Source: Actinophytocola gossypii
GTDB taxonomy: Bacteria > Actinomycetota > Actinomycetes > Mycobacteriales > Pseudonocardiaceae
Direction: 5' to 3'
DNA length: 36,983 nt
Assembly: GCF_025165815.1 (NCBI RefSeq)
Contig: NZ_JAFFZE010000035.1
Coordinates: 1-36,983 of the forward strand
Below are positions 1,324 to 16,103 of this stretch, one piece after another (the first letter of the stretch is position 1; each line of letters begins with the position of its first letter). Made by a program: the position numbers and the translations under genes. The notes under the pieces are model-generated. The model had not been told where the DNA came from and did not search any database. It worked only from the letters and a program-made list of their open reading frames with translations.

Positions 1324-2823
1324 ATGACGGCGACGCGGCCCCTGCTCGAGCTCCGTGACGTGCACAAGTCCTTCGACGCGGTCCGGGCGCTGCGCGGGGT
1401 CTCCCTCGAACTGCTCGCCGGCGAGGTGCACGCGCTGGCCGGCGAGAACGGCGCCGGGAAGTCCACCGTGGTCCGGATCATCGGCGGCGAGCACCGGCCG
1501 GACGCCGGCGAGTTGCTGCTGGACGGCGAGCCGACCCGGCTGCGCGGCCCGCGCGAGGCCCAGCGGCACGGCATCGCGGTCATCCACCAGGAACCGAGCC
1601 AGTTCCCCGACCTCACGGTCGCGGAGAACGTGTTCATGGGCCGCCAGCCGCTGCGCGCGGGCCGGCGGATCGACCGGGCGGCGATGCGCGCGCGGACCGC
1701 GGAACTGTTCGACTCGCTCGGCGTGCCGATCGACCCGGACCGGGTCACCCGCGGGCTGTCCATCGCCGACCAGCAGATCATCGAGATCGCCAAGGCGCTG
1801 GCCGCCGAGGCGCGGATCATCGTGATGGACGAGCCGACCGCCGCACTGTCCACTGTGGAGGCGGAGCGGCTGTTCCGGGTGGCGCGCCGGCTCGCCGACG
1901 GCGGCGCCGCGCTGCTGTTCATCTCCCACCGGCTGGAGGAGCTGGCGGCGCTGTGCCAGCGGGTGACCGTGCTGCGCGACGGCGCGCTGGTCACCACCGC
2001 GATGATGGCCGACATCGACCGGGAGACCCTGGTGCGCAGCATGGTCGGCCGCGACGTCGAGCTGCTGTTCCCCGGCCGCGAGCACGAGCCGGGCGAGGAC
2101 GCGCTCGTCGTCGAGGGGCTGACCCGGTCCGGGGTGTTCCACGACGTGTCGTTCACGGTGCGGTGCGGGGAGGTCGTCGGCCTGGCCGGGCTGGTCGGGT
2201 CCGGGCGGTCCGAGGTGGCCAGGGCGGTCTTCGGGGTCGACGAGCGGGACGCCGGCACGGTCACGGTCGCCGGGCGCCCGCTGCGGACCGGTGACCCGCG
2301 CGCGGCGATCGCGGCGGGGCTCGCCATGGTGCCGGAGGACCGCCGCGAGCAGGGCCTGGTGCTGGACCTGTCGATCGAGCGCAACGCGACCCTGGCCCGG
2401 CTGCGCGCGGTGTCCCGTCTCGGCGTGGTGCGGCGGGCGCGGGAACGCGCGGTCGCCGGCGAGTGGGCCGGGCGGCTCGGGCTGCGGTTCCGCCGGCTCG
2501 GCGACCCGGTCGCCACGCTGTCCGGCGGCAACCAGCAGAAGGTCGTGCTGGGCAAGTGGCTGGCCACCGAGCCGGCGGTGCTGATCGTCGACGAGCCGAC
2601 CCGCGGCATCGACGTCGGCGCGAAGGTCGAGGTGCACGCGCTGCTCGCCGACCTCGCCGCGCGCGGGATCGCGGTGCTGATGATCTCCTCGGAGCTGTCC
2701 GAGGTGCTGGGCATGGCCGACCGCGTGCTGGTCATGCACGAGGGCAGGCTCACCGCGGAACTGGACCGCGCCGAGGCCACCGAGGAGGCCGTCATGCACG
2801 CCGCCACCGGGGGTGGACCGTGA
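1324..2823 (+). CDS. rhaT: Sugar ABC transporter ATP-binding protein (rhamnose/ribose type, two ABC domains)
   Basis: This 499-aa tandem ATPase of the CUT2 (RbsA/XylG/RhaT) class powers monosaccharide uptake at the membrane. Domain 1 has Walker A GENGAGKST (40-48), the degenerate signature LSIADQQ (145-151) and Walker B IIVMDEPT (165-172). Domain 2 has a degenerate Walker A (GLVGSGRSE, about 289-297), a good signature LSGGNQQK (399-406) and Walker B VLIVDEPTRGID (419-430). This asymmetry is normal for the family. The start is set by AGGTGAG just upstream. Its stop overlaps the GTG of the first permease (GTGA). It is the first gene of a five-gene operon ending in L-rhamnose isomerase. The rha naming follows the rhizobial system and rests on that neighbour; L-fucose or another sugar is possible. 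Confidence 0.88.
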   Translation: MTATRPLLELRDVHKSFDAVRALRGVSLELLAGEVHALAGENGAGKSTVVRIIGGEHRPDAGELLLDGEPTRLRGPREAQRHGIAVIHQEPSQFPDLTVAENVFMGRQPLRAGRRIDRAAMRARTAELFDSLGVPIDPDRVTRGLSIADQQIIEIAKALAAEARIIVMDEPTAALSTVEAERLFRVARRLADGGAALLFISHRLEELAALCQRVTVLRDGALVTTAMMADIDRETLVRSMVGRDVELLFPGREHEPGEDALVVEGLTRSGVFHDVSFTVRCGEVVGLAGLVGSGRSEVARAVFGVDERDAGTVTVAGRPLRTGDPRAAIAAGLAMVPEDRREQGLVLDLSIERNATLARLRAVSRLGVVRRARERAVAGEWAGRLGLRFRRLGDPVATLSGGNQQKVVLGKWLATEPAVLIVDEPTRGIDVGAKVEVHALLADLAARGIAVLMISSELSEVLGMADRVLVMHEGRLTAELDRAEATEEAVMHAATGGGP

Positions 2824-3845
2824 GCACCCAGGCCACCCGGACCCGCGGCGCGTTCGCCGGCAGGGAGCTGGGGATCGTCATCGCGCTGGTGGCGGTGGTG
2901 GGGGCGGCGACGATCGCCCGGCCGAGCTTCCTGTCCGCGCAGGGCCTGCACGACCTGTTCCTCAACGCCTCGATCATCGCGCTGCTCGCCGTCGGCCAGA
3001 CGCTGCTGGTGATCACCAGGAACATCGACCTGTCGGTCGGGTCGGTGATGGGGCTGACCGCGTTCCTCAGTGGACAGATGTTCCTGAACGACAAGGACAC
3101 CCCGGTGATCCTGGTCGTGCTGGCCGGGATCGCGCTCGGCGCGGTGTGCGGGGCGGTCAACGGCGCGCTGGTCGCGATCGCGAAGGTGCCGGCGCTGGTG
3201 GTCACGCTCGGCACGCTGTACGTGTTCCGCGGCGTCGACTACGCGTGGGCGTCGGCGACCGACGTGCAGCAGGTCAACGCGTACCAGATGTCGCCGGAGT
3301 TCCTCTCGCTCGGTTCCGGCTCGGTGCTGGGCGTACCGAACCTGACGCTGATCGCGCTCGCCGTGCTCGCGGTCGCCGCGTACGGGCTGCACAACTACCG
3401 CGCCGGCCGCGAGCTGTACGCGATCGGGTCCAACCCGGACGCCGCGCGGTTGGCCGGGATCCCGAGCGGGCGCAGGGTGTTCGGCGCGTTCGTCGTCTCC
3501 GGCGCGCTGGTCGGGCTCGGCGGCGTGCTGCACGCGGCGTACTTCGGCACGATCAACGCCTCGGTGGGCACCGGCGAGGAGCTGTCGGTGGTGGCCGCGG
3601 TGGTGGTCGGCGGGGTGGCGATCTTCGGCGGCAGCGGCACGGTCGTCGGCGCGGCGCTCGGTGCGCTGCTGCTGACCACGGTCACCAGCGCGCTGCCGGT
3701 ACTCGGGGTGCCGGCGTTCTGGCAGCGCGCGGTCGACGGCGCCGCCCTGCTGGTCGCGATCTCGCTGGACCGGGCGGTGATGCTGCGGCTCGCGGCCCGG
3801 CTGCGGGAGGAACGCGGGCGGCGCCGGGCAGGGGGTGCGACATGA
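2820..3845 (+). CDS. rhaP: Sugar ABC transporter permease 1 (CUT2, RhaP-like)
   Basis: This 341-aa polytopic membrane protein of the BPD_transp_2 family (RbsC/XylH/RhaP) has about eight to ten hydrophobic segments. It carries the family pattern LVITRNIDLSVGSVMGL near residue 65 and GGVAIFGGSGTVVGAALG near residue 265. The GTG start overlaps the ATPase stop by four bases, and its own TGA overlaps the next ATG (ATGA), so the three genes are translationally coupled. It should form a heterodimeric channel with the following permease. Confidence 0.88.
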   Translation: MSTQATRTRGAFAGRELGIVIALVAVVGAATIARPSFLSAQGLHDLFLNASIIALLAVGQTLLVITRNIDLSVGSVMGLTAFLSGQMFLNDKDTPVILVVLAGIALGAVCGAVNGALVAIAKVPALVVTLGTLYVFRGVDYAWASATDVQQVNAYQMSPEFLSLGSGSVLGVPNLTLIALAVLAVAAYGLHNYRAGRELYAIGSNPDAARLAGIPSGRRVFGAFVVSGALVGLGGVLHAAYFGTINASVGTGEELSVVAAVVVGGVAIFGGSGTVVGAALGALLLTTVTSALPVLGVPAFWQRAVDGAALLVAISLDRAVMLRLAARLREERGRRRAGGAT

Positions 3846-4879
3846 GGACCCTGCGCTGGGAAGCGGTACTGCTCGCGTTGTGCGTGGCCGTGCTGGCCTA
3901 CGGCGCGGCGACCACCGACGGGTTCACCGAGCAGGGCAACCTCGCGTTCCTGCTGCTCGACTACAGCGAGGTCGCGCTGCTCGCGCTGGCACTGCTGCCG
4001 ATCGTGCTCACCGGGGAGATCGACCTGTCGGTGGCGTCCACGCTCGGCTTCTGCTCGGCGCTCACCGGAACCCTGTGGGAGGCCGGGCTGCCGTTCGAGA
4101 CGATCGTGCCGCTGGTGCTGCTGGCCGGCGCCGCGCTCGGCGCGGTCAACGCGGTACTCGTCGTCTACTTCGGACTGCCCTCGCTCGCGGTCACGATCGG
4201 CACGCTCGGGCTGTACCGGGGGCTGGCATACGTGCTGCTCGGCGACCGCGCGGTCACCGGCTTCCCGGCCAACTACCGCCCGCTCGCCACCGACTCGATC
4301 GGGTTCCTGCCCTACGCCACGGTCCTCGTGCTCGTGGTGGGGATCGGGGTGGCGCTGCTGGTGCACGTGACGCCGGTGGGCCGGTCGCTGTACGCGATCG
4401 GGCTGAACACCCAGACCGCGCGGTTCTCCGGGATCCGCGTCGACCGGGTGAAGCTCGCGCTGTTCGTGCTCTCCGGCGCGCTGGCCGCGCTCGCGTCGCT
4501 GCTCTACACGCTGCGCTACAACAGCGCCCGAGCGGACAACGCCAACGGCATGGAGCTGGTCGCGGTGGCGGCGGTCCTGCTCGGCGGCGTGTCGATCTTC
4601 GGTGGGCGCGGCACCGTGCTCGGGGTGGCGACCGCGCTGCTCGCGATGGCCGGGCTGCGCAACGTGCTGTTCCTCGACGACGTCAGCAACGAGATCCAGA
4701 ACGTGATCACCGGCCTGCTGCTGATCGTCTCCGTACTCGTACCTGTTCTGTTCAAGCCGAGGAGGACCAAGGATGCTCCGCTCGACAAGTCTACATCGGA
4801 CACTGGTGGCGATCCTGGCGGTGGTCGCGCTCGCGGCCTGCGGGGGGACCACGAGGGGGTCGGACGCGGCGGAGGGTGA
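3842..4879 (+). CDS. rhaQ: Sugar ABC transporter permease 2 (CUT2, RhaQ-like) with a C-terminal tail overlapping the next gene
   Basis: A second BPD_transp_2 permease, 345 aa. It carries ALLPIVLTGEIDLSVAST early and GGVSIFGGRGTVLGVAT late, the same landmarks as the first permease. The hydrophobic core ends around VLVPVLFKPRR. The frame then continues for about 33 polar, Gly/Arg-rich codons to a TGA at 4877-4879, running 107 bases into the binding-protein gene, which has its own strong Shine-Dalgarno inside the permease frame. The tail is not typical of the family. It may be a chance read-through after loss of an earlier stop. Confidence 0.86.
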   Translation: MRTLRWEAVLLALCVAVLAYGAATTDGFTEQGNLAFLLLDYSEVALLALALLPIVLTGEIDLSVASTLGFCSALTGTLWEAGLPFETIVPLVLLAGAALGAVNAVLVVYFGLPSLAVTIGTLGLYRGLAYVLLGDRAVTGFPANYRPLATDSIGFLPYATVLVLVVGIGVALLVHVTPVGRSLYAIGLNTQTARFSGIRVDRVKLALFVLSGALAALASLLYTLRYNSARADNANGMELVAVAAVLLGGVSIFGGRGTVLGVATALLAMAGLRNVLFLDDVSNEIQNVITGLLLIVSVLVPVLFKPRRTKDAPLDKSTSDTGGDPGGGRARGLRGDHEGVGRGGG

Positions 4880-5846
4880 CGGCGGTGGCGGCAACGAGCG
4901 CAGCGCCAACCCGGACGCCGAGATCCAGGAGGGGCTGAAGATCGCCTTCCTGCCCAAGGAGATCGACAACCCGTACATGACGATCATGGACGAGGGCGGC
5001 ACCACCGCGGTGGCCGAGACCGGCGGCGAGGGCAAGGCGGTCGGCCCGTCCGACGCGTCGGCGTCCTCCCAGGTGTCCTACATCAACACGCTGATCCAGC
5101 AGCAGCAGGACGCGATCGTGATCGCCGCGAACGACCCGAACGCGGTGGCGCCGGCGCTCAAGGACGCGATGAGCCAGGACATCGCCGTGGTGACCGTGGA
5201 CTCCGACGCGGCGAAGGACGCCCGGCACGTGTTCGTCAACCAGGCGTCGGCGGAGGAGATCGCGCTCACACAGGTGGAGCTGATCACCAAGCAGATCGGT
5301 GGCAGCGGCAAGATCGCGATCCTGTCGGCCACCCCGAACGCCACCAACCAGAACGCCTGGATCGCGATCATGGAAGAGGAGCTGAAGAAGCCGGAGTACG
5401 CGGACATCGAGCTGGTGGCGACGGTCTACGGCGACGACGACGACCAGAAGTCGTTCCAGGAGGCGCAGGCGCTGCTGCGCTCGCACCCGGACCTCAAGGG
5501 CATCGTCTCGCCGACCACGGTGGGCATCGCGGCGGCCGCGCGGTACCTGTCGTCCTCGCCGTACAAGGGGAAGGTGGCGCTGACCGGTCTCGGCACGCCG
5601 AACCAGATGCGCCAGTTCGTCAAGAACGGCACGGTGACCGAGTTCGCGCTGTGGGACCCGGCCGAGCTGGGCTACCTGGCCGGCTACGCGGCCGCCGCGC
5701 TCGCCTCCGGCCAGATCTCCGGCGCGGAGGGCGAGACGTTCGAGGCCGGCAAGCTCGGTGAGCGCACGATCGGCGCGGACGGCGAGGTCATCCTCGGCCC
5801 GCCGACCGTGTTCGACGCCGAGAACATCGACGACTACGACTTCTGA
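4773..5846 (+). CDS. rhaS: Sugar ABC transporter substrate-binding lipoprotein (RhaS-like)
   Basis: This 357-aa protein has a lipoprotein signal: basic n-region, hydrophobic stretch LVAILAVVALAAC, and lipobox LAAC with the cysteine at 23. An acidic/Gly-rich linker follows, then a Peripla_BP_4 fold (MTIMDEGGTTAVAET, DAIVIAANDPNAVAPAL, GIVSPTTVGIAAAARYL). This is the RbsB/RhaS class that feeds CUT2 transporters. The start is fixed by GAGGAGG about 8 bases upstream of the ATG at 4773. It overlaps the previous permease by 107 bases and sits 12 bases before the isomerase, with which it is surely co-transcribed. The ligand is likely a 6-deoxyhexose (inference from context). Confidence 0.88.
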   Translation: MLRSTSLHRTLVAILAVVALAACGGTTRGSDAAEGDGGGGNERSANPDAEIQEGLKIAFLPKEIDNPYMTIMDEGGTTAVAETGGEGKAVGPSDASASSQVSYINTLIQQQQDAIVIAANDPNAVAPALKDAMSQDIAVVTVDSDAAKDARHVFVNQASAEEIALTQVELITKQIGGSGKIAILSATPNATNQNAWIAIMEEELKKPEYADIELVATVYGDDDDQKSFQEAQALLRSHPDLKGIVSPTTVGIAAAARYLSSSPYKGKVALTGLGTPNQMRQFVKNGTVTEFALWDPAELGYLAGYAAAALASGQISGAEGETFEAGKLGERTIGADGEVILGPPTVFDAENIDDYDF

Positions 5847-5858
5847 CCAGGGGGTCCG

Positions 5859-7025
5859 ATGACCGACCAGCGGGCGGTGCGGGAGGCGTTGCGCACCCAG
5901 CACATCGAGACGCCGTCGTGGGCGTACGGCAACTCCGGCACCCGGTTCAAGGTGTTCGCGCAGGAGGGGGTGCCGCGCGACGCCTACGAGAAGATCGACG
6001 ACGCGGCCGTCGTGCACCGCTACACCGGGGTCGCGCCGACGGTCGCGCTGCACATCCCGTGGGACCGGGTGACCGACTACGGCGACCTGGCCCGGCACGC
6101 GCGGGAGCGGGGCATCGGGATCGGTGCGATCAACCCGAACGTGTTCCAGGAGGACGAGTACCGGCTGGGCAGCGTGTGCAACCCGGACCCGGCGGTGCGG
6201 CGCAAGGCGCTGGACCACCTGCTGGAGTGCGTGGACATCATGGACGTCACGGGTTCGGCGGACCTGTCGCTGTGGTTCGCGGACGGGACGAACTACCCCG
6301 GCCAGGACTCGATCGCCGACCGGCAGGAGCGGCTGTCCGAGGCGCTGCGGGCGGTGTACGACCGGCTGGGCGACGGGCAGCGGATGCTGGTGGAGTACAA
6401 GCTGTTCGAGCCCGCGTTCTACACGATGGACGTGCCGGACTGGGGGACGTCGTACGCGCACTGCGTCGACCTCGGGCCGCGGGCGAAGGTGCTGGTGGAC
6501 ACCGGGCACCACGCGCCGGGGACGAACATCGAGTTCATCGTGGCGTTCCTGCTGGCGCGGTCGCGGCTGGGCGGGTTCCACTTCAACTCGCGGTTCTACG
6601 CCGACGACGACCTGATGGTGGGGGCGGCGGACCCGTACCAGCTGTTCCGGATCATGGTGGAGATCGTGCTCGGCGGCGGGCTCGAACCGGCGGCGGGCGT
6701 GGCGTTCATGCTCGACCAGTGCCACAACATCGAGCCGAAGATCCCGGCGCTGATCCGCTCGGTGCTCAACGTCCAGGAGGCGACGGCGAAGGCCCTGCTC
6801 GTCGACGCGGCCGCGCTGCGCGGGTTCCAGCGCGAGGGTGACGTGCTGTCGGCGAACGCGGTGTTGACCGACGCGTTCGCCACCGACGTCCGCCCGCTGC
6901 TGGCCGAGCTGCGCGAGGACATGGGCCTCGACCCGGACCCGATCGCCGCCTACCGCCGCTCCGGCCACTTCGAGCGGATCCGCGCCGAGCGCGCGGACGG
7001 GGCCGCGGCCGGCTGGGGCGCCTAG
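5859..7025 (+). CDS. rhaI: L-rhamnose isomerase (RhaI type)
   Basis: This 388-aa TIM-barrel sugar isomerase of the RhaI family (the Pseudomonas-type L-rhamnose isomerase) interconverts L-rhamnose and L-rhamnulose using divalent metal. N-terminal landmarks are SGTRFKVF and GVPRDAYEK. Probable metal and catalytic residues are E179 (LVEYKLFEP), D214 and H217/H218 ([11 protein letters not shown]), H241 (GGFHFNSRF) and D249-D251. The ATG at 5859 follows a GGGGG purine run. It is the last gene of the transporter operon. The usual partners, rhamnulokinase and rhamnulose-1-phosphate aldolase, are absent from the window. Its TAG at 7023-7025 shares CTAG with the stop of the convergent lactonase. Broad specificity is known in this family, so a role on another deoxy sugar is possible. 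Confidence 0.9.
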
Positions 7026-7825
7026 ACGCCGTACACCCGGGCGGCGGTGCCCCCGAACACCGCCGCCCGCTCCGCCTCGGACAGGCCGGCGGTGAGAGCC
7101 TCGGCCGCGGCGGTGACCTGGGAGTAGGTGGCGGCGAGTTCGCAGACCGGCCAGTCGGAGCCGAACATGACCCGGTCCGGGCCGAACGCGGTGAGCACGT
7201 GGTCGGCGTACGGGCGCAGGTCGTCGATCGACCAGGTCGCCCAGTCGGCCTCGGTGACCAGGCCGGACAGCTTGCAGGTGACGTTGGGGTGCCTGGCCAG
7301 CTCGGTGATCGCGGTCGCCCATGGCTCCATGGCGCCGGTGGCGATCGGGGGTTTGCCGGCGTGGTCGAGCACCAGGCGGGTGGGCACCCGTCCGGCGAGT
7401 TCCACCGCGGCCGGGAGCTGGGGTGGGCGGACCAGGACGTCGTAGGCGAGGTCGGCGTCGGCGAGCGCGTGCAGGCCGCGCAGGACGTCGGGGCGCAGCA
7501 GCCAGCGCGGGTCGGGCTCGTCCTCGGCCTGGTGCCGGACGCCGACGAGGAGTTCGTGGTGGCCGGCGAGGCGGTCGGCGATGTCGGGGGCGGTCAGGTC
7601 GACCCAGCCGACGACGCCGGCGACCAGGCCGCCGGCGGTGGCGAGGAACTCGTCGGTCTCGGCCTCGTCGGAGACCGTCTGCACCAGGATCGTGCGGGTG
7701 GCCGGGGTGACCGCGCGAAGGTCGTCGAGGGTGTACGGGCGGCGGATCGGGGCCAGGGCGTCGCCGGCCATCCACGGGTGGTCCCTGGTCGCGGGGTCCC
7801 ACAGGTGGTGGTGCGCGTCGATCAC
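7022..7825 (-). CDS. Amidohydrolase-family sugar lactonase (L-fucono-lactone hydrolase)
   Basis: This 267-aa protein of the COG3618 amidohydrolase_2 group opens L-fucono- or L-rhamnono-lactone to the acid. It begins [11 protein letters not shown] (metal histidines 5-7). It also has [22 protein letters not shown] and a late FGSDWPVC carrying the catalytic aspartate. The GTG start at 7825 has GAGGAGG upstream and overlaps the stop of the aldo/keto reductase by four bases. It is the last gene of the mutarotase-AKR-lactonase operon, directly after the enzyme that would make its substrate. Its stop codon shares CTAG with the end of rhaI, leaving no terminator between the convergent operons. Confidence 0.85.
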
Positions 7826-8784
7826 GTGGCCTCCTCGGGCAGTGGGGTGTCGGCCCGCAGCAGGCCCTCGGCGACCAGGTCGGCCCAGAGCGCGCCCGGG
7901 ACGCGGGCGGACGCGCGGGCCGCGTTGGCCTCGACCTGGGCCGGGGAGCTTGCGCCGAGCACGACGCTCGCCACGGCGGGGTGCGCGGCCGGGAGCGCGA
8001 CCGCCGCCTCGGGCAGCGTGACCCGGTGCCGCGCGCAGACCTCGGCGATCCTGGTGGCGCGCTCGACGAGCGCGGTGGGGGCGGCGTCGTAGTTGTAGGT
8101 GTGGCCCGGGGTGTCGGAGGCGAGGATGCCGGAGTTGAACACCCCCGCGGCGATCACGTCGACGCCGCGCTGTTCGCACAGCGGCAGCAGCTCGTCCAGG
8201 GCGGGTTGTTCGAGCAGGGTGTACCGGCCGGCGATCATCACCACGTCGACGTCGGCCCGGCGGACGAACTCGGCCAGGACGTCGTCGAAGTTCATGCCGA
8301 GCCCGATTCCGCGCAGCACCCCCTGCTCGCGCAGCTCGACCAGGGCGGGCAGGGCGCCGGTGAGCGCTTCGTCGACGTGAGCCTCTGGATCGTGCACGAA
8401 CGCGATGTCGATCCGGTCCGCGCCGAGACGTTCCAGGCTCGACTCGAGCGAGCGCAGGACACCGTCCCGGCTGTAGTCGCGGCGGCGGACGTGGGTGGCC
8501 GGAACGTCGAAGCCTTCGGGGTCGCGCTCCCCCGGGTCGCCCGGGTTGTCCACGAGCAGCCGCCCGACCTTGGTGGACAGGACGTAGTCGTCCCGCGGCC
8601 GGTCCGCGAGGGCGGCGCCGAGCCGCCGCTCGGACAGCCCGAGCCCGTAGTGCGGAGCGGTGTCGAAGTAGCGGATTCCACGCGCCCAGGCGGTGTCGAC
8701 GATCGCGGCCGCGGTCTCGTCGGACATCGCGCGGTAGAGGTTGCCGAGCTGCGCACACCCCAGCCCGAGGTTCGGGATGTTCAT
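7822..8784 (-). CDS. Aldo/keto reductase, probable L-fucose (6-deoxyhexose) dehydrogenase
   Basis: This 320-aa (beta/alpha)8 NAD(P)-dependent enzyme has the AKR tetrad visible as D41, Y46 (YFDTAPHYGLGLSE), K72 (LSTKVGR) and H131 (FVHDPE). It resembles the L-fucose/D-threo-aldose dehydrogenase branch of AKRs, which oxidises the pyranose C1 to the lactone. The ATG at 8784 overlaps the mutarotase stop (ATGA), and the following lactonase gene overlaps its own stop. The mutarotase, dehydrogenase, lactonase order matches the first three pathway steps exactly. Preference for L-fucose over L-rhamnose is inferred from the downstream L-fuconate dehydratase. Confidence 0.85.
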   Translation of the reverse strand: MNIPNLGLGCAQLGNLYRAMSDETAAAIVDTAWARGIRYFDTAPHYGLGLSERRLGAALADRPRDDYVLSTKVGRLLVDNPGDPGERDPEGFDVPATHVRRRDYSRDGVLRSLESSLERLGADRIDIAFVHDPEAHVDEALTGALPALVELREQGVLRGIGLGMNFDDVLAEFVRRADVDVVMIAGRYTLLEQPALDELLPLCEQRGVDVIAAGVFNSGILASDTPGHTYNYDAAPTALVERATRIAEVCARHRVTLPEAAVALPAAHPAVASVVLGASSPAQVEANAARASARVPGALWADLVAEGLLRADTPLPEEAT

Positions 8785-9104
8785 GGTCCGACCCGCTCGG
8801 GAAGCTCCCAGACGAGGCCGAGCCCGGTGTCGGTGCCGGAGTAGTCGTCCTCGACGTCGAGGAGTTCGGCCATCCTGGCCTGCCAGCGCTGGTTGCCGGG
8901 GTGGTCGCGCAGGGCGTGGCGCATGGCGGCGTAGTCCTCGACCTCGACGACGTGGAACAGGTCGAGGCCGTCGCGCCAGATGCGCCAGGAGGTGACGCCG
9001 GCGGCGCGGAGGGCGTCGTCCAGGTCGTCGGGAATCGTGGCGTGGACGCGTTCGTACTCGGCTTCGGCGCCCGGCTTGAGCCGGGTGTGCAGGGCTACCC
9101 GCAT
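8781..9104 (-). CDS. L-fucose/L-rhamnose mutarotase (COG3254)
   Basis: A 107-aa ferredoxin-like protein of the L-rhamnose mutarotase family, which interconverts alpha and beta anomers of 6-deoxyhexoses. Its pattern EYERVHATIPDDL aligns with EYQRRHNPIWPEL of E. coli RhaM, with the conserved histidine at 21. SWRIWRDGLDLFHVVEVEDY and HPGNQRWQARM are also family-like. The ATG at 9104 has GGAGG seven bases upstream. It is first in its operon, only 63 bases from the divergent GntR gene, and an operator-like palindrome fills that gap. In the Xanthomonas-type fucose pathway a protein of this family is part of the cluster. Confidence 0.87.
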   Translation of the reverse strand: MRVALHTRLKPGAEAEYERVHATIPDDLDDALRAAGVTSWRIWRDGLDLFHVVEVEDYAAMRHALRDHPGNQRWQARMAELLDVEDDYSGTDTGLGLVWELPERVGP

Positions 9105-9135
9105 GGATCCTCCATTCGTGGCACGCTGGGCTGAG

Positions 9136-9150
9136 AGACATCCGAGGTCT
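9136..9150. promoter_or_regulatory. GntR-type operator, site 1 (AGACATCCGAGGTCT)
   Basis: An imperfect palindrome in the 63-bp gap between the divergent mutarotase and gntR starts. It matches the site before the dehydratase (12099-12113) at 13 of 15 positions. One site here could control both the operon and the regulator itself. Confidence 0.6.
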
Positions 9151-9167
9151 GTGGAAAGGGTCGTGCC

Positions 9168-9857
9168 ATGCCGGTCACCGACGAAGCGATCGACAAGATC
9201 AAGGGCATGATCATCTCCGGCGAGCTGGCGCCGGGCGACCGGCTGCCGAAGGAGGCGGACCTGGCCGGCCGGCTCGGGCTGTCGCGCAGCTCGCTGCGGG
9301 AGGCGGTCAAGGCGCTGTGCCTGATCAGGGTGCTGGACGTGCGGCAGGGCGACGGCACGTACGTCACCAGCCTGGAGCCGAAGCTGCTGCTCGACGCGAT
9401 GACGTTCGTGGTCGACTTCCACCGGGACGACACGGTGCTCGACTTCCTGGCCGTGCGGCGCATCCTGGAGCCCGCGGCGACCGCGATGGCCGCGCTGCGG
9501 ATGACCGACGACGACGTCGCCGACCTGGCGGAGCTGCTCGAGGGCCTGGACGAGTCGCCGACGGTCGAGGCGCTGGTGGCGAACGATCTGGAGTTCCACC
9601 GCCGCATCGCGCTGGGGTCGGGCAACCCGGTGCTGTGCTCGCTGATCGACAGCCTGTCCGGCCCGACGACGCGGGCCAGGATCTGGCGCGGCCTGACCCA
9701 GGAGAACGCCGTGGCCAAGACCCGCGAACAGCACCGAGCGATCTACGAGGCGATCGCCGGCCGGGAGCCGGAACTGGCCCGTTCGTGGGCGACCGTGCAC
9801 GTGGCCGGGGTCGAGCAGTGGCTCCGCACAACCCTCGGCCCCACCGACGAGGCGTGA
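9168..9857 (+). CDS. GntR-family regulator, FadR/FCD subfamily
   Basis: This 229-aa transcription factor has an N-terminal winged helix (residues about 1-70: IISGELAPGDRLPKEADLA, LSRSSLREAVKAL, VRQGDGTYV) and an all-helical FCD ligand-binding domain carrying the metal-ligand pattern ANDLEFHRRIA. FCD-GntR proteins commonly repress sugar-acid and lactate genes and are released by a pathway acid. The ATG follows GGAAAGGG. It is transcribed divergently from the mutarotase operon. The same palindrome occurs before all three catabolic operons, so it is the best candidate for their common repressor; the inducer may be L-fuconate or a later keto acid (inference). The 3' end lies inside a 21-bp tandem repeat. 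Confidence 0.88.
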   Translation: MPVTDEAIDKIKGMIISGELAPGDRLPKEADLAGRLGLSRSSLREAVKALCLIRVLDVRQGDGTYVTSLEPKLLLDAMTFVVDFHRDDTVLDFLAVRRILEPAATAMAALRMTDDDVADLAELLEGLDESPTVEALVANDLEFHRRIALGSGNPVLCSLIDSLSGPTTRARIWRGLTQENAVAKTREQHRAIYEAIAGREPELARSWATVHVAGVEQWLRTTLGPTDEA

Positions 9858-9928
9858 CCCCGGGCCGACGAGGCATGGCCCCGGGCCGACGAGGCATGGC
9901 CCCGGGCCGACGAGGCATGGCCCCGGGC
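9849..9928 (+). repeat. 21-bp tandem repeat, about 3.8 copies, spanning the gntR stop codon
   Basis: Units start at 9849, 9870, 9891 and 9912 (last one partial). Each carries the core CCCCGGGCCGACGAGGC. The first unit encodes the last codons and TGA stop of gntR. The next units read GCATGG where the first reads GCGTGA, so they contain no stop. The period of seven codons suggests slippage or unequal duplication of the gene end. Confidence 0.85.
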
Positions 9929-9946
9929 GCGGGGGCCCCCCGCTTT
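9929..9946 (+). terminator. Possible weak terminator after gntR
   Basis: A GC-only inverted sequence, GCGGGGGCCCCCCGC at 9929-9943, is followed by TTT. The stem is strong but the T-tract is very short, so this is a candidate only. Confidence 0.3.
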
Positions 9947-10024
9947 CCAGCCTAGCCGGTTCGGCCGGGGGGTGGCGGGGGCTCACGGCGGCTGTGGACA
10001 ACTCGGGGCGGCGAATGGCACGGG

Positions 10025-10774
10025 TCAGGGCCTTGGGCGGGGGCGGAGGCCGTACATGCCGCCGTCGACCGCAAGGGCGGTGCCGGTGGTGGAGCTGGAA
10101 CCGGGGCTGGCCAGGTAGGCGATGGCGCCGGCGACCTCGTCCGCGGTGACCAGGCGGCCCATCGGCTGGCGGGCGGCCAGGGCGGCGCGTTCGGCGGCCG
10201 GGTCGGCGGCCGAGTCGAGCAGGCGGCCCACCCACGGGGTGTCGGCCGTACCGGGGCACACGCAGTTCACGCGGATGCCGTCGTCCAGGTGGTCAGTGGC
10301 CATCGCCAGGGTCATGGCCATCACGGCGCCCTTGCTCGCCGAGTACAGGACTCGGTTCGGCAGCCCCTGCCACGCGGCGATCGAGCAGGTGTTCACCACG
10401 GCGGCCGAACTCGACTCGCGCAGGTGCGGGAGGGCCGCTCTGGTCACGCGTGCCATGCCGACCACGTTCACGTCGAGCACTCGGTGCCATTCGGCGTCGT
10501 TGTTGGTGGTCACGTCGCCCTGGGCGCCGATGCCGGCGTTGTTGACCAGCACGTCGATGCCGCCCAGGGTGGTCGCGGCTTCGGTGACGGCCCGCTCGAC
10601 CTCGGGCGTGGAGGACACGTCGCAGCGGTAGCCGAGCAGGGGCTCGGGTACGTCCGGGGCCACGTCGAGGACCGCCACTCGGGCGCCGCGGGTGGTCAGC
10701 AACCGGGCCGCGGCCAGGCCGATGCCGGACGCGCCGCCGGTGACCACCGCGCGCAGGCCTTCGAAGTCGTTCAC
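10025..10774 (-). CDS. SDR oxidoreductase, probable 2-keto-3-deoxy-L-fuconate 4-dehydrogenase
   Basis: A 249-aa classical short-chain dehydrogenase. Visible motifs are the cofactor motif TGGASGIG (12-19), the aspartate at 37 (VAVLD) favouring NAD, NNAG (78-81) and the catalytic triad S131, Y144, K148 (YSASK). The C-terminus ends with the usual [13 protein letters not shown] followed by an Arg/Pro tail. The GTG start at 10774 overlaps the stop of L-fuconate dehydratase (GTGA), so the two are coupled. This coupling points to oxidation of the C4 hydroxyl of the dehydratase product to the 2,4-diketo acid. A GTG at 10792 would add six residues, but the overlap start fits the family better. Confidence 0.85.
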
Positions 10775-12072
10775 AGGAGACCGTCCCTCCACTCCGGACC
10801 GTCGGGAAACGCGTACCGGGCAAGGCTCTCATCCCGGATCCGCGCCGAGAAGCCCGGCTCGGTCGGTGCCAGGTAGCGGCCGCCGCGCACCACCGCCGGG
10901 TCGGTGAAGTGCTCGTGCAGGTGGTCCACCCACTCGATCGCCCGGTTCTCGTCGGTGCCGGACACCGCCACGTAGTCGAACATCGACAGGTGGCGCACCA
11001 GCTCGCACAGGCCGACGCCGCCGGCGTGCGGGCACACGGGCACGCCGAACTTGGCCGCCAGCAACAGGATCGCGACGTTCTCGTTGACCCCGCCCACCCT
11101 CGCCGCGTCGAGTTGCAGCACGTCGATCGCGCCGGCCTGCAGGAGTTGTTTGAAGACCACGCGGTTCGCCACGTGCTCGCCGGTCGCCACCCGGATCGGG
11201 CGGACGGCGTCGGCCACGGCGCGGTGGCCGAGCACGTCGTCCGGCGAGGTCGGTTCCTCGATCCAGTACGGGTCGTACGGGGCGAGCGCGCGCATCCACT
11301 CGATCGCGGGGCCGACGTCCCAGCGCTGGTTGGCGTCCACCGCGATCCGAACACCGTCGCCGACCGCCTCGCGGGCCAGCCGCATCCGTCGTACGTCGTC
11401 CTCGACGGACGCGCCGACCTTGAGTTTGATCATGTCGAAGCCGTCGGCGACGGCCTGCTTGGCCAGGCGTACGAGCTTCTCGTCGGAGTAGCCGAGCCAG
11501 CCGGCGCTCGTGCTGTACGCGCGGTAGCCGGCGGCGCGCAGGTGCGCGGCACGCTCGGCGCGGCCCGGCTCGGCGGCGCGCAGGAGGTCGAGCGCCTCGG
11601 CCTCGGTGAGCGCGTCGGTGAGGTAGCGGAAGTCGACCAGCCCGACGATCTCCTCCGGCGACATCTCCGCCAGGAAGCTCCACAGTGGACGGCCGACGCG
11701 CCGGGCGGCGAGGTCCCAGGCGGCGTTGACCACCGCGCCGATCGCCATGTGCGCCACGCCCTTCTCCGGGCCGAGCCAGCGCAGCTGCGAGTCGCCGACC
11801 AGGGCGGCGGACAGCGCGGCGAGTTCGGCCGCCGTGTCCGGGGTGGGGCGGCCGACGACCAGGTGCGCCAGCGCGTGGATGCCGGCGGCCTGCACCTCGT
11901 TGCCGCGGCCGATGGTGAACGCGAGCCCGTACCCGTCCGGCCCGTCGTCGGTGCGCAGCACCACGTAGGCGGCGGAGTAGTCCGGGTCGGGGTTCATCGC
12001 GTCCGAGCCGTCCAGCTGCCTGGACGTCGGGAACCGGACGTCGAACACGTCCATGCCGACGATGTGCGCCAC
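10771..12072 (-). CDS. fucD: L-fuconate dehydratase (enolase superfamily)
   Basis: This 433-aa enzyme of the mandelate racemase subgroup removes water from L-fuconate to give 2-keto-3-deoxy-L-fuconate, with Mg2+. From the GTG start every key residue sits two positions before its counterpart as I recall it in the characterised Xanthomonas enzyme: K216/K218 (IKLKVG), D246 and N248 (VDANQRWD), E272 ([10 protein letters not shown]), E299-H300 and H349 ([10 protein letters not shown]). The N-terminal [19 protein letters not shown] and [12 protein letters not shown] are near-diagnostic of this family rather than of rhamnonate dehydratase. The start has AAGGGGA upstream. It is first of a two-gene operon with the SDR, and the operator at 12099-12113 lies 27 bases ahead. 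Confidence 0.93.
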
Positions 12073-12098
12073 GGCAGGGTCCCCTTCCCTCACGAACC

Positions 12099-12113
12099 AG
12101 ACATCCGATGTAT
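12099..12113. promoter_or_regulatory. GntR-type operator, site 2 (AGACATCCGATGTAT)
   Basis: A near-perfect palindrome 27 bp before the fucD start. On the minus strand it overlaps a TATACAT sequence that could be the -10 box, which is a repressing arrangement. It shares ACATCCGATGTA with site 3. Confidence 0.65.
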
Positions 12114-12137
12114 ACCCGATCCGGCGCGCACAGGCCA

Positions 12138-12160
12138 CCCCTGGCACCCAAAGGCAGGGG
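12138..12160 (-). terminator. Hairpin after lutC, possible terminator
   Basis: Arms CCCCTG (12138-12143) and CAGGGG (12155-12160) form a 6-bp GC stem with an 11-base loop, 12 bases past the lutC stop. There is no T-tract, so termination is uncertain; it separates the lut operon from the fucD promoter. Confidence 0.35.
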
Positions 12161-12171
12161 GATTGATCCGA

Positions 12172-12792
12172 TCAGTTGACGATCAGGATCTCCAGGTTGC
12201 GGGGGCCGTGCACGCCCTCCACCCGGTCCAGCTCGATGTCGCTGGTGGCCGACGGGCCGCTGATGAAGGTGAGCGGGCTGGTCGGCGAGAGCCGGGCCAG
12301 CGCCTCCGGGACGGTGCCGACCACCTGGTCCGCTCGGACCACGCACAGGTGGTAGTCCGGCAGCAGCGTCAGCGCCCGCCGACCCTGTGCCTCGCCCGCG
12401 TCGAGCACGACCGTGCCGGTCTCGGCGATCGCGACGGCGCACCCGGTGAGCACCCCGTCGGAGCGGTCCAGCGCGCGGATGGACAGCGGGTGGCCCGGCT
12501 CGTCCAGCGACCACACCACCTCGCCGATCCGCCACCAGGCGGGCAGGTCGTCCGGGGCGGCCATCCGGCGCGCGCCCCTGGCGCGCAGGGACACGTCGAT
12601 CTCCTCGGCCAGCTCGCGCGGGCGTACTCGGCGGACCACAGCCCGGTAGTCGGCCGCCCGCTCGGCGAACAGCCCGACCACGTCCTGGACGTCCCGGGAG
12701 GTGTCGTAGTCGCGCGGCACGGGCGCCGCGGTGGGCCGGTCGGCCAGCGCCGCCCGGATCCGGCCGAGCACCACGTCCCGCGCGTCAGCCAC
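12172..12792 (-). CDS. lutC: Lactate utilization protein C
   Basis: This 206-aa LUD-domain protein is the third subunit of the LutABC L-lactate oxidising complex. The LUD core shows VLTGCAVAIAETGTVVLDAG, LLPDYHLCVVRADQVVG and LTFISGPSATSDIELDRVEGVHGPRNLEILIV, the last being very typical of the family end. The GTG at 12792 has GGAGG five bases upstream and overlaps the lutB stop by eight bases. An upstream GTG or ATG would only extend it into lutB. Last gene of the hydrolase-lutABC operon. Confidence 0.92.
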   Translation of the reverse strand: MADARDVVLGRIRAALADRPTAAPVPRDYDTSRDVQDVVGLFAERAADYRAVVRRVRPRELAEEIDVSLRARGARRMAAPDDLPAWWRIGEVVWSLDEPGHPLSIRALDRSDGVLTGCAVAIAETGTVVLDAGEAQGRRALTLLPDYHLCVVRADQVVGTVPEALARLSPTSPLTFISGPSATSDIELDRVEGVHGPRNLEILIVN

Positions 12793-14434
12793 GACGGCCT
12801 CCACGGACACGCCGCACCAGGTCGGCGAAGGCGCCGCCGAGAAGTGGGGCGCCGGTGTCCGGCGGCGCGGTTCCGGCGTCGTTCGGCAGGGTGCCGCGTC
12901 CGCGAAGGCGTCGCCACAGGGCCGAGTGGGCGGTGCGGCCCGGCGCCGGTGCACGGGACCGTGTCCGCGAGCCGGACGACGCCCGCGAGGTCGGGCCGCG
13001 GGTGCGGCGCCACCACGCCGAGAACGTCTCCTTCGGCGGCGCGGGCACGTCCCGCGAGTCCGTCCACAGCGAGGCCGGCCACGGCAGCCGCCGCACCCGG
13101 CCGTGCCTGGCCAGCAGCCGGAGTGGGCCGAGCAGGCGTTGGGCGAGCCGGAAACGGCTCGGCGACGTCATCACCCACGACGCGGCCGCCATCGCCACCG
13201 CCTCGGGGGTGTACGGGCCCTTCTCCGTCACGGACCGGGAGCGGAGGTGGACCAGCACCTCCGGAATGTCGATCCGCACCGGACACACCTCGTAGCACGC
13301 CCCGCACAGGGACGACGCGAACGGCAGCGACCGGAGCAGCGACGCCGTCGACGGATCGTCCGTGCCGGCGCCCAGCTGCGGGGTCAGGATCGCGCCGATC
13401 GGACCCGGGTACACCGAGCCGTACGCCTGGCCACCGGTCCGCTCGTACACCGGGCACACGTTCAGGCACGCCGAGCAGCGGATGCAGCGCAGGGCTTGGC
13501 GGCCGACCTCGTCCGCGAGCGTCGCGGTGCGGCCGTTGTCCAGGAGCACCAGGTGGAACTCGCTGGGGCCGTCACCGGGGGTCACGCCGGACCACACGGA
13601 CGTGTAGGGGTTCATCCGTTCGGCCGTGGATGATCTCGGCAGCAGCTGGAGGAACACCTCGAGGTCGCGCCAGGTGGGCACGACCTTCTCCAGGCCCATC
13701 ACGGTGATCAGGGTGCGGGGCAGGGTCAGGCACATGCGACCGTTGCCCTCGGACTCGACGACCACCACCGAGCCGGTGTCGGCGACGGCGAAGTTCGCGC
13801 CGGAGATCGCCACCTTCGCGGACAGGAACTTGCGCCGCAGATGAGCACGGGCCGCCTCGGCCAGGTCGGCGGGACTGTCCGAGAGGGACGGTGACGCGCC
13901 GGGCATGGTGGCGCGGAAGATGTCCCGGATCTCCGCCCGGTTCCGGTGGATCGCCGGGACCAGGATGTGCGACGGGCGGTCGTCGCCGAGTTGGACGATC
14001 AGTTCGGCGAGGTCGGTTTCCACCGCGGACACGCCGCCGGCGGCGAGGGCCTCGTTGAGGCCGATCTCGGCGGTGGCCATCGACTTGACCTTGACGACCT
14101 CGGACGCTTCGGCGGCGCGGACCAGGCCGAGCACGATCTCGTTGGCCTCCGCCGCGTCGCGCGCCCAGTGGACGACGCCGCCGCGGGCGGTGACGGCCGC
14201 CTCCAGGCGGGTCAGGTGCGTGTCCAGGTTGGCCAGGACGTCGTCCTTGATCGCCTCGCCGGCCAGGCGGAGGCGTTCCCAGTCGGGCAGTTCGGAGACC
14301 ACCGCTGCGCGCTTGGTGCGGATCGTGCCGGTGGCGTGGGCCAGGTTGCCGCGCAGCTGGGTGTCGGCGAGTGCGGCACGGGCGGCCGACGGGAAGGTCG
14401 GGCTGCCCAGCCAGGTCACCGGGTTGCGACCCAT
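12785..14434 (-). CDS. lutB: Lactate utilization iron-sulfur protein B, with C-terminal extension
   Basis: A 549-aa subunit with an N-terminal LUD domain (GNLAHATGTIRTKRAAVVSE, GANFAVADTGSVVVVESEGNG) and two 4Fe-4S cysteine clusters, CIRCSACLNVCPVY and CGACYEVCPVRIDIPE. It passes electrons from L-lactate, presumably to the respiratory chain. LutB proteins usually end soon after a motif like PPKETFSAWWRR. Here about 90 further Arg/Gly/Pro-rich, probably disordered residues follow. The ATG at 14434 has GGAGGAG upstream and overlaps lutA by 19 bases. Confidence 0.92.
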   Translation of the reverse strand: MGRNPVTWLGSPTFPSAARAALADTQLRGNLAHATGTIRTKRAAVVSELPDWERLRLAGEAIKDDVLANLDTHLTRLEAAVTARGGVVHWARDAAEANEIVLGLVRAAEASEVVKVKSMATAEIGLNEALAAGGVSAVETDLAELIVQLGDDRPSHILVPAIHRNRAEIRDIFRATMPGASPSLSDSPADLAEAARAHLRRKFLSAKVAISGANFAVADTGSVVVVESEGNGRMCLTLPRTLITVMGLEKVVPTWRDLEVFLQLLPRSSTAERMNPYTSVWSGVTPGDGPSEFHLVLLDNGRTATLADEVGRQALRCIRCSACLNVCPVYERTGGQAYGSVYPGPIGAILTPQLGAGTDDPSTASLLRSLPFASSLCGACYEVCPVRIDIPEVLVHLRSRSVTEKGPYTPEAVAMAAASWVMTSPSRFRLAQRLLGPLRLLARHGRVRRLPWPASLWTDSRDVPAPPKETFSAWWRRTRGPTSRASSGSRTRSRAPAPGRTAHSALWRRLRGRGTLPNDAGTAPPDTGAPLLGGAFADLVRRVRGGRRG

Positions 14435-15147
14435 GGCTCCTCCTCCGTGCTCGCCAGGATCTCCGCCAGGTGCAGCGCCCGCACCCCGGTGTTCAGCCGC
14501 GACAGCCCGCCGCCGATGTGCATCAGGCACGAGTTGTCACCGGCGGTCACCACCCGCGCGCCGGTGTCGAGGACGCCCTGCATCTTGTCCGCCAGCATCG
14601 CGGTCGACGTGTCGGCGTTCTTGAGGGCGAACGTGCCGCCGAAACCGCAGCACTCGCGCGCGCCGGGCAGCTCAACCAGGTCGAGCCCGCGCACCGCGCG
14701 CAGCAGCCGCAGCGGCTTGTCCCCCACCCCGAGCATCCGCAGCGAGTGGCAGGTCGGGTGGTAGGTGACCCGGTGCGGGAAGTACGCGCCGACGTCGGTC
14801 ACGCCGAGCACGTCGACCAGGAACTCGGACAGCTCGTAGGTCCGCCCGGCCACCCGGACCGTCGAGCGGTGCAGGCCGGGGTACAGGTCGCGGACCATGC
14901 CGGCGCACGAGCCGGACGGCGCCACCACGGCGTCGTAGCCGTCGAACGTCCTGGCCGTGTGGCGGGCGAGCGTGGTGGCCTGCCTGCGGTAGCCGGTGTT
15001 GTAGTGCATCTGGCCGCAGCAGGTCTGCGCGTCCGGGAACTCCACGTCGCAGCCGAGCCGCTCCAGCAGCCGGACCACCGCCCGCGCGGTGTCCGGGTAC
15101 AACGTGTCGGTCAGACACGTCGCCATCAGCGCGACGCGCGTGGTCAC
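14416..15147 (-). CDS. lutA: Lactate utilization protein A (CCG-domain Fe-S subunit)
   Basis: This 243-aa protein has two cysteine-rich CCG domains that bind a 4Fe-4S cluster. Motifs are TCCGQMHYNTGY in the first half and LPGARECCGFGGTFALKN in the second, plus ITVxGDNSCLMHIGGGL-like sequence near the end. It is part of the LutABC L-lactate dehydrogenase. I chose the GTG at 15147 because GGAAGGGG is well spaced from it; a GTG six bases earlier touches that same site. It lies 19 bases after the diketo-acid hydrolase, so lactate is made and consumed by enzymes of one operon. Confidence 0.92.
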   Translation of the reverse strand: MTTRVALMATCLTDTLYPDTARAVVRLLERLGCDVEFPDAQTCCGQMHYNTGYRRQATTLARHTARTFDGYDAVVAPSGSCAGMVRDLYPGLHRSTVRVAGRTYELSEFLVDVLGVTDVGAYFPHRVTYHPTCHSLRMLGVGDKPLRLLRAVRGLDLVELPGARECCGFGGTFALKNADTSTAMLADKMQGVLDTGARVVTAGDNSCLMHIGGGLSRLNTGVRALHLAEILASTEEEPWVATR

Positions 15148-15166
15148 CCGCACCCCTTCCGAAAAG

Positions 15167-16021
15167 CTAGGCCCTGGCGAGCACCTGCCGCTGCCGCCCG
15201 AGTCCCTCGATCTCGATCTCCATCACGTCGTCGACCGCAAGGTACGGGAACCGGCCGGACAGCGCGACGCCCTGCGGGGTGCCGGTGTTCAGCAGGTCGC
15301 CCGGTTCCAGCACCATGAACTCGCTGAGGTGGTGCACCAGCTCCCCCACCCCGAACAGCATGTCGGCGGTCGTCGAGTCCTGCCTGGCCTCGCCGTTGAC
15401 GAACGAGCGCAGGCGCAGCGACCCGGGGTCGACCTCGTCGGCCGGCACCAGCCACGGGCCGAGCGGGTTGAACGTCTCGCAGCACTTGCCCTTGCCCCAC
15501 TGTCCACCGGAGACGGCCGGGTCGAGCTGGAAGTGCCGCTCGGACACGTCGTTGGACACGGTGTAGCCGGCGACGTGGGCCAGCGCCTCCTCGGGCGATT
15601 CGAGGTAGCGGGCGCGGCGGCCGATGACCACGCCCAACTCGACCTCCCAGTCCACCTTCTCCGCGCCACGCGGCAGCAGCACCTCGTCGTACGGGCCGAC
15701 GACGGTGTTGGGGTGCTTGAAGAAGACCACCGGCTGGGCGGGCGGCGCGGCGCCGGACTCGGCGGCGTGCGCGGCGTAGTTCATGCCGACGCAGACCACC
15801 GACCACGGCCGGGTGATCGGCGCGCCGACCCGCTCGCCCTCGATGTCGACGGCCGGCAGGTCGCCCGCGGCCAGGGCGTCGCGTACCCGCGCGATGCCGT
15901 CGGCGGCGAGGAACGTGCCGTCGAGGTCGTCGGTCAGGCCGGCGAGGCCGAAGGCCCGCCCCTCGTCGTCGGTCACCACCGGCCGCTCGGCGCCGGCGGC
16001 GCCCACTCGCATGAGCCGCAA
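15167..16021 (-). CDS. FAH-family hydrolase, probable 2,4-diketo-3-deoxy-L-fuconate hydrolase
   Basis: A 284-aa fumarylacetoacetate-hydrolase-fold enzyme. It has the metal-binding pattern DWEVELGVVIG, SNDVSERHFQ with the aspartate ligand, and the end motif GDLLNTGTPQGV. In the L-fucose and L-rhamnose diketo-hydrolase pathways this family splits the diketo acid into pyruvate and L-lactate. It is followed directly by lutABC, which uses L-lactate; this supports that reaction over a fumarylpyruvate role. The TTG start at 16021 is preferred because GAGGAG lies eight bases upstream; an ATG nine bases later lacks one. It is first in its operon and has operator site 3 at 16089-16103. Confidence 0.88.
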   Translation of the reverse strand: MRLMRVGAAGAERPVVTDDEGRAFGLAGLTDDLDGTFLAADGIARVRDALAAGDLPAVDIEGERVGAPITRPWSVVCVGMNYAAHAAESGAAPPAQPVVFFKHPNTVVGPYDEVLLPRGAEKVDWEVELGVVIGRRARYLESPEEALAHVAGYTVSNDVSERHFQLDPAVSGGQWGKGKCCETFNPLGPWLVPADEVDPGSLRLRSFVNGEARQDSTTADMLFGVGELVHHLSEFMVLEPGDLLNTGTPQGVALSGRFPYLAVDDVMEIEIEGLGRQRQVLARA

Positions 16022-16088: not shown

Positions 16089-16103
16089 ATACATCCGATG
16101 TAA
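16089..16103. promoter_or_regulatory. GntR-type operator, site 3 (ATACATCCGATGTAA)
   Basis: One base short of a perfect 15-bp palindrome and sharing ACATCCGATGTA with site 2. It lies 67 bp before the start of the hydrolase-lutABC operon. Confidence 0.65.

Follow-up and report, generated by a model that had tools for sequence, protein, structure and literature searches.

A predicted L-fucose regulon in Actinophytocola gossypii with lutABC directly behind the lactate-releasing hydrolase

A stretch of 36,983 bases of Actinophytocola gossypii DNA, referred to here as the window and comprising the entire contig C21 of a 7.38 Mb draft genome, was analysed for genes of L-fucose catabolism. Within 7022-16012 it carries six predicted enzymes of the non-phosphorylating L-fucose route, as identified by domain and profile searches, and the lutABC genes of L-lactate oxidation stand directly behind the gene of the FAH-family hydrolase that is predicted to release L-lactate. 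The best explanation, and one that we hold to be quite probable from sequence comparison, is a fucose regulon with a built-in exit for lactate. An operator-like palindrome, ACATCSGATGT, is perfect in front of the FAH-lutABC unit and because of this lutABC is placed in the fucose regulon. The regulatory fusion of lutABC with the fucose locus, which had been claimed in an earlier reading of the sequence alone (the sequence-only reading), is thereby supported, and the palindrome is perfect at the same position in two relatives, G066 and G031, that keep the lutABC-fucD order of the window.

Organization of the locus and its palindromes

On the minus strand the genes follow one another as FAH hydrolase (15167-16012), lutA (14416-15147), lutB (12785-14434), lutC (12172-12792), fucD (10771-12072) and an SDR gene (10025-10774) that ends this series at 10025. 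Past a plus-strand gene for a GntR/FCD regulator (9168-9857; PF00392 and PF07729), which is convergent with the SDR gene and separates it from the mutarotase block, the minus strand continues with the genes of a mutarotase (8781-9104), an AKR (7822-8784) and a lactonase (7022-7825), the last of which ends at 7022. FAH and lutA are 19 bp apart, the pairs lutA-lutB, lutB-lutC and fucD-SDR overlap, and lutC and fucD are separated by 99 bp with an operator-like palindrome inside the gap; the start codons were picked by homology. All the genes named by the sequence-only reading, and hence all six pathway enzymes, were found at the positions given for them. It had also put lutABC and the hydrolase in one operon, and the 19-bp spacing supports this, but the locus as a whole is not one operon since it forms two blocks around the GntR gene and three units. 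The single-operon reading of the locus was dropped for the reason that the GntR gene intervenes and that there are three promoter regions with a palindrome. The FAH-fucD-SDR order was found again in relatives and for this reason the arrangement of the genes appears to be more than chance. A tandem repeat at 9844-9928 (21-bp unit, four copies, 96% matches) lies between the convergent gntR and SDR genes, and a tRNA scan and an Rfam scan at the gathering threshold gave no matches over the window.

Two of the three palindromes are perfect, one at 16091-16101 upstream of FAH-lutABC and the other at 12101-12111 in the lutC-fucD gap before fucD-SDR, and the third, at 9138-9148 in the gntR/mutarotase gap, reads ACATCCGAGGT and has one mismatch, a variant that is repeated in many relatives. 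At up to one mismatch, four sites were observed in the window against 0.65 expected, and four were reached in none of 100 shuffles; three are those at the promoters named above and the fourth (16154) is likewise ahead of FAH. No sign of a regulation of the lut genes apart from the hydrolase was found in the sequence, as no separate promoter was apparent behind the hydrolase gene. Sites of the LldR/LutR type have the form TNGT..ACNA, and none was found in the six stretches of the window where they were sought. The GntR/FCD protein, which we propose as the regulator of the fucose genes, scores about 100 bits with each of the NCBIfam models NanR, LldR and PdhR, far under their cut-offs (for LldR, 100 bits of 311), and its gene is 2.3 kb beyond lutC. 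Its identity to relatives is 90-94% in the genus and 79-88% at the fuc loci of genus g16, and it is lower elsewhere.

The palindrome in related genomes and a proposed wider regulon

The closest relatives of the FucD of the window are those of Amycolatopsis and kin. From the 174 genomes with a fucD match, 79 gave the 80 family regions that were examined (G066 was used twice), taken from the top of the list and from a spread of the rest. In 72 of these 80 fuc regions a site with at most one mismatch lies no more than 250 bp ahead of FAH or fucD, and it is perfect in 56. The regions add up to 1.58 Mb, in which ACATCNGATGT occurs as a perfect site 61 times, whereas of eight rearranged palindromes seven do not occur and one occurs four times; with one mismatch allowed there are 139 sites against 0-9 for seven of the rearranged palindromes. 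The FAH-lutABC promoter of G115 was outside the promoter scan, and a site (11) upstream of lutA in L142 was discounted because the start used for it runs off the region. The presence of ACATCSGATGT at fucose promoters is a new observation.

The draft genome has four perfect ACATCSGATGT sites and none of the reversed pattern that was used as a control. Two of them are those of the window and a third (C45:105576) is 53 bp ahead of the longest ATPase frame of an operon on contig C45 that codes for an ABC ATPase, a permease and a binding protein and whose last gene codes for a GH95 protein (PF22124, 566 bits), the solved relatives of which include several alpha-(L-)fucosidases. A transporter of this type was found in four genomes (this one, G066, G132 and G031; 84-90% identity in the three other genus members) and in all four it has a perfect upstream site. 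G066 has the site first, then a second FucD gene, the ABC transporter and GH95. The transporter was not found in G094 and G115, where the scoring covered 150 of 252 and 150 of 271 initial candidates; in these two an ABC transporter lies inside the fuc locus, whereas the fuc loci of the window genome, G066, G031 and G132 contain none. Next to the transporter, G066 has a near full-length fucD paralogue and G132 has one that lacks its middle part (L289, 439-1443; query residues 98-182), which would be a decaying gene if the draft assembly is correct there, and in the window genome the site stands directly before the transporter. One short palindrome predicts a fucose regulon made up of a GH95 enzyme, a transporter, the pathway and lactate oxidation.

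lutABC at the locus and away from fucD

All three lut genes are present in order, lutA coding for a cysteine-rich CCG protein (PF02754 in two stretches, 2.1e-34), lutB for a protein with LUD and 4Fe-4S domains (TIGR00273, 440.5 bits) and lutC for a LUD domain protein (PF02589, 2.3e-23), for which the single solved relative among the matches listed is the conserved hypothetical protein 2g40. The part of lutB at 12785-12973 codes for a C-terminal tail rich in R, P and A that extends about 60 residues beyond the end of its relatives. The neighbours of lutABC are FAH and fucD with no adjoining regulator or permease gene, this locus has the sole LutB match in the genome (E <= 0.001), and the lactate permease family PF02652 was not found in the genome.

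A search for lutABC near fucD in other actinomycetes, which the sequence-only reading had suggested, found it in 6 of the 80 family regions and in 1 of 80 loci from named genomes, so that the linkage recurs and is not unique to this strain. These counts refer to lutABC within the fetched flanks of fucD, loci cut by a contig end being scored as lacking it, and some organisms are in both sets. The linkage beyond this strain is seen in the genus, in two other genera and in one Streptomyces (L085). In G094 and G115 lutABC ends 5-7 kb before fucD, and it stands behind FAH in G094 while in G115 FAH is upstream of lutA as well; in G008 and G030 it is past a GntR gene at the other end of the locus. 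LutA matches at 37% identity in L053 and L208 were rejected as lutABC.

LutB is present in 30 of 44 chosen genomes with fucD, and in genus g16 fucD was found with no LutB at E <= 1e-60 in 14 of the 15 genomes searched. Where operons of the same LutB clade lie away from fucD, a site with at most one mismatch is found within 140 bp of lutA in 11 of 12 (one relative has ACATCCGATGA), whereas the other eleven operons away from fucD have no such lutA site. In genomes without a fucD match the site was found at 1 of 14 lutA promoters. This control set was 20 of the 123 genomes without a fucD match (E <= 1e-120), 15 of them with LutB and 14 with a full lutA promoter, and the scan covered 220 bp in the control genomes versus 140 bp in the others. 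Within the same LutB clade the comparison is 11 of 12 away from fucD versus 1 of 8 without a fucD match (Fisher p 0.0008), and with the operons of all clades taken together the figures are 11 of 23 versus 1 of 14 (p 0.013), shared descent being ignored in both. A second LutB of G017 (C31) was outside the set of lutA sites. In a LutB tree of 46 of the 47 loci, the partial L287 being dropped, the six sequences of the genus form one group (100/98) next to four site-bearing operons away from fucD. In genus g22 (L264-L272) nine lutABC operons of another clade have TGTGGTCNGACCACA-like palindromes ahead of lutA, and three of the nine also have a relative of GntR upstream, which looks like a dedicated LutR system.

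Because the site is at 11 of 12 lutA promoters of the same clade away from fucD, the coupling of fucose and lactate seems to be wider than the physical fusion, which would be the form that it takes in this genus. We read this as coupling in trans that may have come first and fusion that may have come later. A broader proposal, to which we give slightly less than even credence, is that one LutABC clade in Pseudonocardiaceae-like actinomycetes is a terminal module of L-fucose catabolism and not one of lactate utilization, controlled in trans by the fucose regulator where it is unlinked, with the site mostly missing where there is no fucose catabolism, and fused behind the hydrolase in this genus.

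Pathway enzymes and identity of the sugar

The dehydratase FucD, a member of the enolase superfamily, matches the L-fuconate dehydratase structures 1yey, 2hne and 2hxt with about 650 bits across 429 residues, whereas it scores 65.5 bits with the L-rhamnonate dehydratases 3fxg and 2p0i and 72.8 bits of the 393 needed with NF011968; it is of the FucD type and not of the RhmD type. The alignment covers the family's K-x-K, D, E, E and H residues. The amidohydrolase-2 protein (PF04909, 6.5e-52), predicted to be an L-fucono-1,5-lactonase, has as its top solved relative 4dlf (173.6 bits), which is named Amidohydrolase 2 and is presumably an L-fuconolactonase. For the AKR (PF00248, 2.6e-48), a predicted L-fucose (6-deoxy-L-galactose) dehydrogenase, the top five solved relatives are all L-galactose dehydrogenases, the best at 116 bits, and this fits L-fucose but would fit L-galactose as well. 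The SDR (PF13561, 2.8e-55) has the probable oxidoreductase 4dqx as its top solved relative, and at the threshold applied no solved protein with a named function is close to it; it is predicted to be the 2-keto-3-deoxy-L-fuconate 4-dehydrogenase from its position in the cluster only. The FAH-family protein (PF01557, 2.8e-67), a predicted 2,4-diketo-3-deoxy-L-fuconate hydrolase that would yield pyruvate and L-lactate, is closest among solved proteins to the L-2,4-diketo-3-deoxyrhamnonate hydrolase 8gsr (207.6 bits), and it leaves the sugar undecided because the fucose and rhamnose routes share its diketo intermediate. The mutarotase is of the RhaM type (PF05336, 1.2e-20; about 35 bits with the L-rhamnose mutarotase/RhaU structures 2qlx and 2qlw). 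L-Fucose is favoured because of the FucD-type dehydratase, the solved relative of the lactonase and its match, under the cut-off, to the NCBIfam FuconLaconase model, the relatives of the AKR, and the GH95 operon that has the same perfect palindrome. The FAH proteins of the genus (the one at 15167-16012 and those of L137, L138 and L141) share 57-64% identity with their counterparts at eight other family loci, and those eight share 66-91% with one another; this looks like faster change or replacement of the hydrolase in the genus.

In the route that we propose, L-fucose would be taken up and oxidized by the AKR to L-fuconolactone, which the lactonase would open to L-fuconate; FucD would dehydrate this to 2-keto-3-deoxy-L-fuconate, the SDR would oxidize it at C4 to 2,4-diketo-3-deoxy-L-fuconate, and the FAH hydrolase would split the diketo acid into pyruvate and L-lactate. 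LutABC, presumably transcribed directly behind the hydrolase, would then turn L-lactate into a second pyruvate, and the whole route would need no kinase or aldolase. The claim of the sequence-only reading that fucose ends in two pyruvates in this way has support from homology at each step. The GntR/FCD regulator, bound at ACATCSGATGT, would keep the three local promoters and the distant ABC-GH95 operon shut until it is released by fucose or by a product of fucose breakdown, which might be L-lactate. In this scheme we infer the substrate, the order of the steps, the pairing of the regulator with the site, the direction of control, the inducer and the electron acceptor of LutABC.

Alternative explanations

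The alternative that survives best, though we think it unlikely, is that the cluster serves L-rhamnose or both 6-deoxyhexoses, that RhaSTPQ is the porter and that lutABC also clears the L-lactate which the RhaEW route releases together with dihydroxyacetone phosphate. In its favour, genes for RhaSTPQ and RhaI directly adjoin the fucose block: an L-rhamnose ABC transporter is coded on the plus strand at 1324-5846 (ATPase 1324-2823, permeases within about 2813-4876, the RhaS binding protein 4773-5846 with 402 bits to TIGR02637, cut-off 342), followed on the same strand, outside the fucose unit, by the L-rhamnose isomerase gene (5859-7025; TIGR02635, 629 bits, cut-off 531), and this operon (1324-7025) is convergent with the lactonase gene. 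The type of the mutarotase, the closest relative of the hydrolase and its intermediate, which is common to both routes (outlined in PMC11199699), point the same way, and so does a RhaEW protein (1053 bits, cut-off 568) with an FGGY kinase match on contig C41 behind a LacI-type gene, together with the published product of RhaEW and the placing of lldEFG in RhaR regulons of certain Actinomycetales (in outline, PMC3870299). In G115 and G094 close RhaT relatives are found about 15.5 kb and 31 kb, respectively, from fucD; the relatives of the rhamnose ATPase there have 80-81% identity, and for this reason the proximity of rhamnose and fuc genes may predate this strain. Against this alternative, the rhamnose transporter promoter has a perfect LacI-type palindrome of its own, TGAAACGTTTCA, at 1288-1299 and lacks a fuc site even when one mismatch is allowed, and RhaI is in none of the 80 family fuc regions and RhaS in one only, at 23% identity. 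In the window, TGAAACGTTTCA at up to two mismatches is found only at 1288 and 19928, and so at no lut promoter, the form of the site being inferred from the window. L-Rhamnose as the main substrate was rejected on the type of the dehydratase, the separate palindrome and the GH95 operon to which the fuc site leads.

Less probable still is a stereochemical relative, for example L-galactose or D-arabinose, as the true substrate, fucose then being secondary. The best matches of the AKR would agree with this, and GH95 also contains L-galactosidases; the Campylobacter fucose cluster is summarized as supporting both L-fucose and D-arabinose (PMC11365321). However, the named solved relatives of the GH95 protein include several alpha-(L-)fucosidases, and L-galactose should give L-glycerate and not L-lactate at the hydrolase, which would leave lutABC without a role. 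The most improbable of the three is that lutABC is a general lactate-utilization operon which landed here by chance. In its favour, lutABC was not seen in the fetched flanks of fucD in 74 of the 80 family regions and in 79 of the 80 loci from named genomes (some of them cut by contig ends), LutB was not found in 14 of the 15 g16 genomes searched, and the nearby GntR protein is as near to LldR as to NanR. Against it, lutA follows the hydrolase closely after a perfect site, an arrangement that G066 and G031 retain, the lutA site is present in 11 of 12 same-clade operons that lie away from fucD, the nine g22 operons have TGTGGTCNGACCACA-like palindromes instead, and no PF02652 permease was found in the genome.

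Several observations weigh against the fucose regulon with a lactate exit or against parts of it. The hydrolase scores 265.5 bits with NF053535 (cut-off 500) and the lactonase 225.5 bits with NF052480, the NCBIfam FuconLaconase model (cut-off 400), both being under the cut-off, and LutB is just short of the 444.8 bits set for its family; the L-galactosidases of GH95 weigh on the same side. Two LldD-like flavin mononucleotide (FMN) dehydrogenases, themselves under cut-offs, are coded elsewhere in the genome and because of them LutABC may not be the sole L-lactate oxidase, and lactate itself may be the signal because the GntR protein is no nearer to NanR than to LldR. As for the palindrome, 8 of the 80 fuc regions have no near site, all of them in a set whose FucD is only 70-72% identical to that of the window; one control palindrome reaches 88 against 139 at up to one mismatch in the 1.58 Mb; the FAH-lutABC promoter of G094 has a site with two mismatches only; for the fourth perfect site of the genome (G000:C28:120426), which is close to an HAD-like gene, no tie to fucose is apparent; and the genome has six other copies of the relaxed form ACATCSGAKGT seen at 9138. 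In G132 FAH-lutABC and fucD are on separate contigs with no fucD within about 0.9 kb after lutC, and G047 has a lut site despite having no fucD match. Lastly, 10 of the 11 lutA sites away from fucD end in GATGA, one base off the consensus, but this may be a true variant because it is present at the fucD promoter itself in eight Streptomyces loci (L021, L022, L024, L026, L045, L046, L047 and L052).

Comparison with known systems

The non-phosphorylating L-fucose route and its gene clusters are established, with pyruvate and L-lactate as the end products (outlined in PMC11199699), and a fucose route with a fucosidase is described in outline for a genome of the actinomycetotal Acidimicrobiia (PMC12263773). 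The predicted steps here are those of route 3 (FucF/FucG, diketo-hydrolase), likewise ending in pyruvate and L-lactate (PMC11199699, in outline). What differs is that here lutABC is directly behind the hydrolase and that there is a palindrome regulon linked to a GntR/FCD protein. The aldose dehydrogenase here is an AKR, whereas in the other described fucose clusters it is usually an SDR.

Compared with LutABC (LldEFG) operons, the three subunits with their CCG, LUD and Fe-S domains are alike, but here there is no adjoining regulator or permease and the palindrome is common to the fucose locus. The likeness to RhaR regulons is an L-lactate dehydrogenase under the regulator of a 6-deoxyhexose: Rodionova et al. 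2013 are summarized as placing lldD/lldEFG in the RhaR regulons of some Actinomycetales and Rhodobacterales and as proposing an extension of the pathway to pyruvate (PMC3870299), so that a coupling of lactate oxidation to deoxyhexose breakdown has a precedent. Those regulons, as outlined there, concern rhamnose and a phosphorylating route with RhaEW, under a LacI-type regulator in Actinomycetales, whereas here the sugar is predicted to be fucose, the route non-phosphorylating and the site GntR-linked, and the lut genes are fused behind the hydrolase that would make the lactate. Among the matches listed, titles and the opening parts of abstracts gave no published description of a linkage of lutABC/lldEFG with fucose or L-fuconate dehydratase, of lutABC with rhamnose, or of a GntR fucose regulon. 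If the reading is right, the lactate of the fucose route is given a defined fate, and LutABC, usually annotated as lactate utilization, can serve sugar catabolism as a dedicated step, and this alters how these genes are read in genome-based models. The locus appears to combine known parts in a new arrangement, with lactate oxidation directly behind the lactate-releasing hydrolase and apparently under the same switch.

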